Positions 23,601 through 59,753 of a DNA stretch of 64,000 nucleotides are shown piece after piece. The notes below the pieces were generated by a model, which did not search any database, was not told where the DNA came from, and worked only from the letters and a program-made list of their open reading frames with translations. Every line of letters begins with the position of its first letter. Within the stretch, counting starts at the first letter, position 1. The position numbers were made by a program, and so were the translations under genes. The stretch comes from Candidatus Gastranaerophilales bacterium (GTDB taxonomy: Bacteria > Cyanobacteriota > Vampirovibrionia > Gastranaerophilales > Gastranaerophilaceae): contig CALVBO010000003.1 of the NCBI GenBank assembly GCA_944325835.1, positions 124,001 to 188,000 of the forward strand, given 5' to 3'.

Positions 23601-23825
23601 TGTCCGAGAAAATCTCGCGATAAGGAACGTGAGCGAGATTTTAGAGTGGCGTATTAGACAGCGAGCCACAGTGCAGGCTTGCGATTACTGTCTGACAAAT
23701 CAAAGATTTGAAACGGTAGAGATGTAATGCTCGCCTGCTTGTCATACTCATGTGTGCCAACATTGCGAGCACCGGCTGATGCTTTGAGCAAGCCTGGTAG
23801 GTGGCGAAGAACTGCTTTATCTTTT
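23601..23825. repeat. Palindromic repeat family F1, copy 1
   Basis: Begins TGTCCGAGAAAA and ends GAACTGCTTTATCTTTT. The defining stem is AAAATCTCGC (23609-23618) with GCGAGATTTT (23633-23642) around a 14-nt loop. The middle has ATTTGAAACGG and GCGAGCACCGGCTGA. The right end overlaps the TAA stop of the minus-strand MlaD-like gene. Confidence 0.8.
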
Positions 23826-24741: not shown

Positions 24742-24894
24742 TGTCCGAGAAAGGCTCGCGATAAGGAACGTGGCGTGAATGAGTTGCGAAGCAACTCCCG
24801 CTCACGCAAGCGAGCCTTTTGAGTGGCGTATTAGACAGCGAAGCCGCCACGGCTCGCGGTTCAGCGAGGCGGAGCGGCGGAGAACTGCTTTATT
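24742..24894. repeat. Palindromic repeat family F1, copy 2
   Basis: Stem AAAGGCTCGC (24750-24759) with GCGAGCCTTT (24810-24819). The 50-nt loop holds its own nested hairpin (AGTTGC-gaa-GCAACT inside CGTGA/TCACG). The right half reads GAGTGGCGTATTAGACAGCG, ending AACTGCTTTATT 1 nt before the stop of the TolC-like gene. Confidence 0.8.
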
Positions 24895-41333: not shown

Positions 41334-42578
41334 ATGAAAAATATCAGACAGTCAAATATAAGTATCCATAGGGATTCCTGGGTTGAAATTAACCTTGAAA
41401 ATCTTGCATATAATATAAAAGAAATCAGAAAAAGTGTTCCAGAGGGCAAAAAACTTCTTGCAGTAGTAAAAGCGGACGCTTACGGACACGGGGCGGTTAT
41501 GCTTGCACCGACTATTCTTGCAAGCGGCTGCGACATGCTCGGCGTTGCTTCAATTGACGAGGGCATTGACCTTAGAAACGCAAAAATCAGCTGTGAAATT
41601 CTTGTCCTCGGGGCGGTTCCGGTCTGGGCTGTAGAAAGCGCCGTAAATGCGGGAATTTCAATCGCAATTTTTTCAAAAGAACACCTTGCAGCCTGCAAAC
41701 AGGCTTATGAAAGAACAGGTGTGAAACCTAAAGTCCACGTTAAAATTGATACCGGCATGAACAGAATCGGGGTTCAGCCCGCTGATGCCGTTGATTTTAT
41801 CCGTGAAGTTCAGGCGGCAGATTATTTACAAATTCAGGGGATATTTACCCACCTTTATGAGGCGGAAAGCGTTGAGGAAACGGTCAAACAGGTTAACATT
41901 TGGAACAGCATAATCTCACAAATTGATACTACGGGTCTTTTATTGCATATTCAAAATACCGCGGGAACTCTTTGTTATGATGTTCCGACATCTAATATGC
42001 TGAGAATTGGTATAGGGCTTTATGGACTGGCTCCTGATTATCCAACCCGAGAAAGTCTCGCAACGTTTCAATTGAGCGAGACTTTGGAGTGGCGGGGGAG
42101 ACAGCGCAGCCACGGGTTGGCAAACCACGTTTGCCAAGCAGGTGGCGGAGAACTGCTTTTCACAGACAAGGATTTTAAAAAACCGGAATTGAAGCCTTTA
42201 ATGTCTTTGAAAGGTAGAATTGTGCACATTCACGAAACCGGTGCACCGGCAGGCGTCAGCTATTGCCACACCTTTAAAACAGATGTTCCGGTAAAAGTTG
42301 CGACAATTCCTGTCGGCTACGCGGACGGAGTTTCAAGGCTTTTATCTAACAGGATTACGGCTGAACTCAACGGCAAAAAAATTCGTCAGATAGGCAATAT
42401 CACAATGGATCAGATGATGTTTGACATAACCGGTGTGGACGCGTCTGTCGGGGATGTTGTGACACTTATCGGCGACGGTGCAATGACAATTGATGAGTGG
42501 GCAAAAATTCTCGGCACAATCAATTATGAGCTGACATGCCGTTTGAAAGTCCGGTTGCCGCGGGTTTATACACGTTAA
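41334..42578 (+). CDS. alr: Alanine racemase carrying an in-frame repeat insert
   Basis: Interconverts L- and D-alanine for peptidoglycan, using PLP. 414 aa, about 40 more than usual. The PLP lysine is in VVKADAYGHG near residue 44 and the catalytic tyrosine in GVSYCHTF near 306. Between LYGLAPDYP and KPELKPLMSLKG, two blocks that are normally nearly contiguous, lie about 38 residues encoded by an F1 repeat copy (RESLATFQLSETLEWRGRQR and onward). The frame is kept and no stop arises, so the protein may still work with a surface loop. Confidence 0.93.
   Translation: MKNIRQSNISIHRDSWVEINLENLAYNIKEIRKSVPEGKKLLAVVKADAYGHGAVMLAPTILASGCDMLGVASIDEGIDLRNAKISCEILVLGAVPVWAVESAVNAGISIAIFSKEHLAACKQAYERTGVKPKVHVKIDTGMNRIGVQPADAVDFIREVQAADYLQIQGIFTHLYEAESVEETVKQVNIWNSIISQIDTTGLLLHIQNTAGTLCYDVPTSNMLRIGIGLYGLAPDYPTRESLATFQLSETLEWRGRQRSHGLANHVCQAGGGELLFTDKDFKKPELKPLMSLKGRIVHIHETGAPAGVSYCHTFKTDVPVKVATIPVGYADGVSRLLSNRITAELNGKKIRQIGNITMDQMMFDITGVDASVGDVVTLIGDGAMTIDEWAKILGTINYELTCRLKVRLPRVYTR
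42047..42162. repeat. Palindromic repeat F1, copy 3, inside alr
   Basis: Starts CCGAGAAAGTCTCGC and ends GGAGAACTGCTTTTC. Stem AAAGTCTCGC (42052-42061) with GCGAGACTTT (42076-42085), loop 14 nt, then GGAGTGGCGG and GAGACAGCGCAGCCACGGG. It is read in frame as protein and keeps both arms of the stem. Confidence 0.85.
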
Positions 42579-47063: not shown

Positions 47064-47720
47064 TTAATTGTACCAGATATTGAACACCGGTTCTGAGTTG
47101 TTCGGGTTTATGTCAACTTCATTACCGCGGAAAATCATTGTGCAATAATTAATAGCTCTCTTCCAGCGCGGATTATACCATTTTAACGTGTTCAGACCTG
47201 TTAACAGCAGTTCTGAATTAAAAGTAGAAAGTTTACCCTGCGCGTTTCTGACACGGAAAGTCTTAAATTCTATTTCTGCATGGTCGGCAAGACAGCCGTT
47301 TTCTTTGACAAAATCGACCGTACCATACATTGTCACACCTTTTTTGATAAAGAGCTTACCATTTTTATAAACATCTTCAACTACAAGAAACGGAATATTA
47401 TCGCCGACCTCGGTTTCGTCATAGGCCGTTGAAATCGGCTCAAGCGGTGAGATCTTAATCGGAATTTTTTCTTCCGCAGCAATCGTCAGACCTGCATTAA
47501 ACAGTAGTAAAAGTGTTATAAAAATTGTCCGAGAAAGGCTCGCGCCCAGTTGAGCCGGAGCCATATTTGTATCAATCGCTACCATAAACTCATGAACCAA
47601 ATGGGGGAGCCACTTAGTGGCCGAGCCTTTTGAGTGACGTATTAGACAGCGCAGTCGCGGGTTGACCTGCGGGAGCAGGGCAAGCAGGCGACGTAGAACT
47701 GCTTTATTTATTTTTTTCAT
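47064..47720 (-). CDS. Secreted protein with repeat inserted in its signal peptide
   Basis: 218 aa. The ATG at 47720 overlaps the upstream stop (ATGA). It reads MKKI, then about 60 residues encoded by an F1 repeat (NKAVLRRLLALLPQVNPRLR onward), then FITLLLLFNAGLTIAAEEKI. Joining the two outer parts gives a perfect signal peptide, so the repeat entered the n-region in frame. Whether the protein is still exported is open. The mature part (IPIKISPLEPISTAYDETEV...) resembles the product of the preceding gene; family unknown. Confidence 0.7.
   Translation of the reverse strand: MKKINKAVLRRLLALLPQVNPRLRCLIRHSKGSATKWLPHLVHEFMVAIDTNMAPAQLGASLSRTIFITLLLLFNAGLTIAAEEKIPIKISPLEPISTAYDETEVGDNIPFLVVEDVYKNGKLFIKKGVTMYGTVDFVKENGCLADHAEIEFKTFRVRNAQGKLSTFNSELLLTGLNTLKWYNPRWKRAINYCTMIFRGNEVDINPNNSEPVFNIWYN
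47526..47708. repeat. Palindromic repeat F1, copy 4
   Basis: Stem AAAGGCTCG (47534-47542) with CGAGCCTTT (47622-47630). The loop (GCCGGAGCCATATTTGTATC onward) is almost identical to that of the copy at 59219. The right half reads GAGTGACGTATTAGACAGCG and ends GTAGAACTGCTTTATTTA. It is read in frame on the minus strand in the gene at 47064-47720. Confidence 0.85.
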
Positions 47721-59218: not shown

Positions 59219-59502
59219 TGTCCGAGAAAGACTCGCGCCCGGCTGAGCCGGAGCCATACTTGTATCAATCGCTACCGTAAGCGTATGAACCAAATGGGGG
59301 GAGCCACTCAGTGGCCGAGTCTTTTGAGTGGCGTGTTAGACAGCGAAGTCGCGGGTTGACCTGCGTTACCCGCCTGACAAATCAAAGATTTGAAACGGCG
59401 GTGATATTATGCTCGCCTGCTCCCCTCGTTCCCACGAGGTGACCCCGCGAGCACCGGCTGACGCTTTAAGCAGGGCAAGCAGGCGACGGAGAACTGCTTT
59501 AT
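59219..59502. repeat. Palindromic repeat F1, copy 5 (longest)
   Basis: Stem AAAGACTCG (59227-59235) with CGAGTCTTT (59316-59324). Contains both the loop of copy 4 and the middle of copy 1 (ATTTGAAACGGCGGTGATAT, GCGAGCACCGGCTGACGC), so it may be the most complete form. The right end GAACTGCTTTATT supplies the TAA stop of the XRE gene. The 340-bp gap 59159-59498 holds nothing else. Confidence 0.85.
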
Positions 59503-59753
59503 TCTTCCACAAGCGTATAATCAAGCGGTAAGTCCCTTAGAAGCTCTTCAATTTTAATGTTTAGCATAGCTGAGGCTTTAACCAGCGAAGAAAATTTTGC
59601 ATCGAATTTTCCGTTCTCAAGTCTGCTCCACGATGCAGTCGTAAGCCCGCCTCTGGTCATTACAAAAGCATTCAGTGATTCCGATTGTTTCAGCCTTAAT
59701 TCTTTAATCCTTTTCCCCAAAATAATGGAATTTTCTTTCTCAACGTATTGCAT
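59499..59753 (-). CDS. XRE-family regulator next to prepilin-like gene
   Basis: 84 aa from the ATG at 59753, followed by IILGKRIKELRLKQSESLNA and SWSRLENGKFDAKFSSLVKA, a Cro/CI helix-turn-helix covering residues 10-68. An ATG at 59816 would add 21 residues read through the operator and is less likely. The stop TAA belongs to the F1 repeat. It faces the second prepilin-like gene across two palindromes and is the likely regulator of that gene and itself. Confidence 0.8.
   Translation of the reverse strand: MQYVEKENSIILGKRIKELRLKQSESLNAFVMTRGGLTTASWSRLENGKFDAKFSSLVKASAMLNIKIEELLRDLPLDYTLVEE

Follow-up and report, generated by a model that had tools for sequence, protein, structure and literature searches.

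An F1 copy in frame within alanine racemase

The alanine racemase gene (alr) of a gut Gastranaerophilales bacterium contains a 120-nt copy of the repeat family F1, which is very probably a mobile element that landed in the gene in frame, is translated, is tolerated as a passive passenger and is already eroding in the sister species. The gene lies in a window of 64,000 nucleotides (the whole stretch of DNA analysed) from genome G000 (contig C3, 124001–188000), whose genus includes Candidatus Gastranaerophilus phascolarctosicola. In this 1.95-Mb, 44-contig, 99.3% complete genome no second alr was matched. The product scores 328 bits against NCBIfam TIGR00492 (curated cut-off 168) and contains Pfam Ala_racemase_N (PF01168) at residues 19–234 and Ala_racemase_C (PF00842) at 290–412. 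The features of the gene and of the insert are the following:

41334–42578, + strand: alr, alanine racemase, 414 aa (TIGR00492, both Pfam domains)
41469–41471, + strand: codon of catalytic Lys46 (VVKADAYGHG), invariant in the alignment and unaffected by the insert
42043–42162, + strand: F1 element, in frame, 120 nt = 40 codons, residues about 238–277 (TRESLATFQLSETLEWRGRQRSHGLANHVCQAGGGELLFT); gap in four congeners, remnant in the sister, leave-one-out profile
42046–42055, + strand: conserved 5′ end motif of F1 (CCCGAGAAAG; family consensus TGTCCGAGAAAG)
42052–42061, + strand: hairpin 1, 5′ arm AAAGTCTCGC (fold, covariation)
42076–42085, + strand: hairpin 1, 3′ arm GCGAGACTTT (fold, covariation)
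42109–42113, + strand: hairpin 2, basal 5′ arm GCCAC (fold, covariation)
42117–42125, + strand: hairpin 2, apical 5′ arm TTGGCAAAC (fold)
42129–42137, + strand: hairpin 2, apical 3′ arm GTTTGCCAA (fold)
42142–42146, + strand: hairpin 2, basal 3′ arm GTGGC (fold, covariation)
42144–42160, + strand: conserved 3′ end motif of F1 (GGCGGAGAACTGCTTTT)
42261–42263, + strand: codon of catalytic Tyr310 (GVSYCHTF), invariant in the alignment, 3′ of the insert

The original prediction had placed an F1 repeat of about 38 codons at 42047–42162, between two blocks of the enzyme and upstream of the catalytic tyrosine, with both stem arms intact and no stop or frameshift. The repeat is indeed present, and alignment to the empty site of congeners moves its boundaries to 42043–42162, or 40 codons. 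It is located as predicted, between the two Pfam domains and before Tyr310, the peptide stretch TRESLATFQLSETLEWRGRQR... being part of it, and the 414-aa reading frame is open throughout, insert included. The copy has both conserved F1 ends and two hairpins with all stem pairs formed, the first of 10 bp and the second of 5 bp plus a 9-bp apical stem, which confirms the intact arms; the fold z-scores on the two strands are −2.9 and −3.5. A DNA profile (nhmmer) built from 21 other F1 copies, with the alr copy excluded, matched 42046–42160 over profile positions 3–117 of 119 (E=1.5e-20).

Empty, full and eroded forms of the insertion

Six congeners were compared. The empty site in alr is clean in four of them (G001, G003, G004 and G006), and in G005 the contig ends before the insert site. 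The sister genome, G002, encodes an Alr of 385 aa that is 97% identical to the G000 protein, and at the insert site it has 33 nt in which the start of the F1 5′ end (acccgggaaagtttcac) is fused to the F1 3′ end (agaactgcttttcac); compared with G000, 87 nt (29 codons) are missing and the frame is kept. Since this remnant has both F1 ends, the insertion predates the split between G000 and G002 and was followed by loss in G002. The full-length insert is seen in one MAG (G000) and the eroded form in a second genome. Among 80 named relatives, 19 of them aligned and the rest assessed by length, Alr measures 372–374 or 392 aa, 385 in the sister, against 414 in G000, and the sister is the only one with F1 at the hinge. 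The insert is thus absent from four congeners and from the wider family, and a homologous loop of the same length, the observation that would have spoken against an F1 origin, was not seen in any F1-free relative.

The 392-aa proteins belong to a clade formed by CAG:439 and relatives (L145, L148, L151, L152, L159, L177, L190), where this hinge between the domains carries an unrelated insert of 18 codons. Such a hinge could also have grown a lineage-specific loop in G000 whose likeness to F1 is coincidental. This is extremely unlikely, because the F1 match runs end to end even with the alr copy left out of the profile, congeners have empty sites, the insert boundaries are the F1 ends, and the sister remnant starts and stops with F1 ends. 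An artefact of assembly or binning, by which an F1 copy was wrongly joined into alr, might be suspected from the several G000 contigs that end within F1 copies. It is very improbable: the sister genome, an independent assembly, has the element inserted at the identical position with both F1 ends, and the F1 copy in alr has diverged, whereas the copies by which assemblers are confused are nearly identical.

Over their 374 common codons, the alr genes of G000 and G002 show 32 synonymous against 8 non-synonymous codon differences, with 35 of the 43 base changes at third positions. As synonymous and third-position changes predominate, alr is under purifying selection. The insert could have been kept for a function, serving the protein as a loop (in oligomer contact or regulation) or the mRNA as a hairpin that tunes alr translation, and the full pairing of both hairpins and the survival of the insertion through a species split would fit with this. 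We consider it unlikely: the sister has lost three quarters of the insert, including both hairpins, while its alr is still constrained, and the insert ends common to both genomes diverge more than the remaining alr. We infer that the insert has no function in Alr.

A predicted flexible linker segment

The length of the insert is a multiple of three and its frame has no stop, which argues that it is translated. Ribosomes hop over hairpin elements in some yeast mitochondria, a precedent for the alternative that the insert is missing from the final protein through ribosome bypass, splicing or the production of two chains. However, the frame is open, and both the insertion and the later deletion are multiples of three, as is expected only under translation, so that bypass seems highly improbable. 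The 414-aa Alr would therefore be made as a protein, and it is presumably active.

An AlphaFold2 model of Alr, built on 39 sequences, is of moderate quality (mean pLDDT 73.6). Both domains are predicted with good confidence, and pLDDT within the insert is about 22–39. The best fold matches of the model in the PDB are alanine racemases, and the secondary structure of both domains matches that of an insert-free homologue with an offset of 40 residues. Because pLDDT is low in the insert and the domain elements are merely shifted by 40 residues, the insert is predicted to be a flexible segment of the interdomain linker, unstructured between two folded domains. This agrees with the extra loop of the original prediction, and the loop is probably exposed.

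The most probable history, that of a tolerated mobile element, would run as follows. An F1 copy entered alr in the common ancestor of the G000 species and G002, where it would have been translated as an extra 40-residue, probably flexible linker segment between the PLP-barrel and the C-terminal β domains. The unrelated insert of the CAG:439 clade indicates that this hinge tolerates insertions; being already variable and tolerant, it would have left the enzyme working, and the insertion would for that reason not have been purged. It would now be a passive passenger; in the sister, 29 of its 40 codons have been eroded without a frameshift.

The F1 family

F1 is present in about 100 copies in the genome. 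A covariance model gave 96 matches, and searches with the 5′ and 3′ ends gave 97 and 141 matches, respectively, against 0 and 31 for the reversed patterns. The ends are sharp, TGTCCGAGAAAG at 5′ and GGAGAACTGCTTTATT at 3′, whereas the middle consists of variable modules, and the length ranges from about 115 to 360 nt with peaks at about 117–120, 153 and 183 nt. The flanks are AT-rich. Other copies in the window are:

23601–23821, + strand: F1 copy, longer modular form
24742–24894, + strand: intergenic F1 copy, 153 nt, with the cleanest empty site, in sister G002; without target duplication
47526–47708, + strand: F1 copy, 183 nt, in frame on the minus strand in an apparent signal-peptide segment (MKKI...FITLLLLFNAG); minus frame open; empty in G001, G004 and G006, common to G002
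59219–59503, + strand: F1 copy, 285 nt, missing from the orthologous place in G002

Several G000 copies are missing at the orthologous G002 places, one of them at base-pair resolution; F1 is therefore a mobile family. No target-site duplication was found at the empty site of 24742–24894, and two further loci (L062 and L068) are consistent with this within one ambiguous T. Terminal inverted repeats are absent, the ends TGTCCGAG and GCTTTATT not being inverted copies of each other across 82 elements.

The two-hairpin fold is well conserved, with 97.9% of cells paired in an alignment of 22 short copies. Compensatory changes altered 8 pairs on both sides, compared with a mean of 4.6 in shuffles, none of which (0/500) reached 8, and the pairing signal was lost when the stem partners were slid along the alignment. 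This covariation shows that the folded form is important for F1, whether as RNA or as single-stranded DNA.

All seven genomes of the genus contain F1. In a class-wide sample, 16 of 194 genomes matched it, all 16 in Gastranaerophilaceae. F1-like elements in other genera of the family (L307–L314) keep hairpin 1 and the loop GATAAGGAACGTGAGC and have a different 3′ part, several of them ending in GACACTAGATTAGA instead of GGAGAACTGCTTTATT; on this sequence comparison, they suggest that F1 belongs to a superfamily with an interchangeable 3′ half. F1 is unmatched in Rfam at the gathering threshold, the single match in the window being a tRNA, and a search of the literature on repeats in Gastranaerophilales/Melainabacteria found nothing on an F1-like element.

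F1 copies in other genes

In-frame F1 insertions occur in at least five genes (alr, NFACT/RqcH, an MMPL exporter and two signal-peptide genes), and each of the four besides alr has an empty site in relatives. In NFACT/RqcH (contig C20, L139) an antisense F1 adds exactly 40 codons at a site that is empty in five congeners, and in the MMPL-family exporter (contig C24, L278) 87 extra codons come from F1, with G002 empty. A third copy, of 117 nt, lies within an apparent signal-peptide coding stretch (L062), also empty in G002. The frame of hairpin 1 is identical in the alr, MMPL and L062 copies and reads V/T-R-E-x-L-A.

Other copies have broken their host genes. The cas1 frame is interrupted by a 118-nt copy (L093, G000:C24:12900-17400), a 154-nt copy splits the gene of an aldo/keto reductase (L137, G000:C2:151000-154200), and a prepilin-like gene is disrupted by F1 in G002. 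The CRISPR locus within L093 (2075-4501) encodes a C-terminus that is Cas9-like by sequence, Cas1 and Cas2, and from these genes it looks like type II. The aldo/keto reductase gene has a second F1 at its 3′ end.

Of 81 copies, 44 have a length divisible by three, and the chance that a random gene insertion keeps the frame and lacks stops is about 0.10. Among the seven copies recognised inside genes, five keep the frame (P about 1.5e-4, to be taken as indicative, the seven not being an exhaustive set). Selection on F1 itself to stay open was rejected, with 1.05 open frames per copy compared with 1.03 in dinucleotide shuffles. Since the frames of F1 are open no more often than those of shuffles, yet in-frame copies exceed chance, their survival looks like purifying selection against broken genes, and because such selection leaves an in-frame excess of this kind, F1 needs no special coding role. 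Random insertion, with selection then removing copies that break the frame of needed genes, would account for the other in-frame copies as well.

At another locus (L279, G000:C15:12500-15700), a bioD-like gene has an F1 on the minus strand at 1546–1654 that stops immediately ahead of its likely start codon and may supply its leader; hairpin 2 of this F1 is the nearest to that of the alr copy. The bioD-like gene (L123/L279) and some N-terminal open frames that have F1 upstream were considered as in-frame fusions and set aside as probable leader insertions of F1.

Search for a mobiliser

The Y1 transposase family PF01797 had no match in G000 (99% complete), which is not proof of its absence, while control genomes were positive. 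Autonomous F1 elements with an ORF between the ends were sought in 14 stretches around 5′ ends without an obvious 3′ end; these contained truncated copies, copies whose 3′ end had diverged, or contig ends, and no F1 bearing a transposase was seen. A reverse transcriptase (PF00078) is likewise an improbable mobiliser. The only one in G000 follows an Avd-like gene (L302, contig C9, 425–2466 for both genes) and, because of this neighbour, it most likely belongs to a diversity-generating retroelement.

Our tentative proposal, which may well prove wrong, is that F1 represents a class of structured mobile element, in gut Gastranaerophilaceae, that has yet to be described. Machinery acting in trans would move it in a folded, single-stranded form (RNA or ssDNA), without terminal repeats or target duplication, and it would repeatedly add segments to core proteins.

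Relation to known elements

In-frame palindromic elements have largely been regarded as a peculiarity of Rickettsia and Wolbachia. Rickettsia palindromic elements (RPEs) lie in frame within unrelated genes (Ogata et al. 2000 and 2002, cited after the review PMC10969869). Both F1 and RPEs are palindromic, multicopy and about 100–150 bp long, and both are found in intergenic regions and in frame in unrelated protein genes, as a fold-compatible extra segment. The likeness to RPEs drawn in the original prediction is apt as a way of working, given the in-frame copies in several unrelated genes and their empty sites; alr does not stand alone, however, at least five genes having in-frame F1 copies. 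F1 differs in its architecture, a pair of hairpins into which modules are inserted (about 115 to 360 nt), in being read in frame in both orientations with frames no more open than shuffled sequence, and, as far as descriptions of RPEs go, in its host, which belongs to Gastranaerophilaceae and not to Rickettsiales, its matches being confined to that family within the 194-genome class sample. By analogy, F1 resembles RPEs in a new phylum, as an apparently unrelated element.

Like MITEs, F1 is short, non-coding, multicopy, recently mobile and sometimes fused in frame to genes, but it lacks terminal inverted repeats, and its cleanest empty site shows no target-site duplication. Subterminal hairpins, an AT-rich target, conserved ends and the lack of target duplication recall REP/BIME and IS200/IS605-type (Y1 HUH) elements; in contrast to these, the F1 host has no PF01797 match, F1 has no GTAG/CGTC-type tag, and it is much longer than REPs. 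The BOX elements of pneumococcus are modular, their ends being fixed and their middle variable. F1 shares this organization and differs, again by description, in sequence, host and module structure.

Three stages of one insertion, empty, full and eroded, are found within sister species of a single genus. They offer a way to test two views of such insertions, as neutral passengers that selection filters or as suppliers of new protein segments. For annotation, an unusual loop in a protein of Gastranaerophilaceae may turn out to be an F1 copy. In the G000 assembly, ends of contigs C10, C13, C15, C21, C24, C28, C29 and C38 fall inside F1 copies, and F1 is apparently a leading reason for the breaks in assemblies of these F1-bearing genomes.
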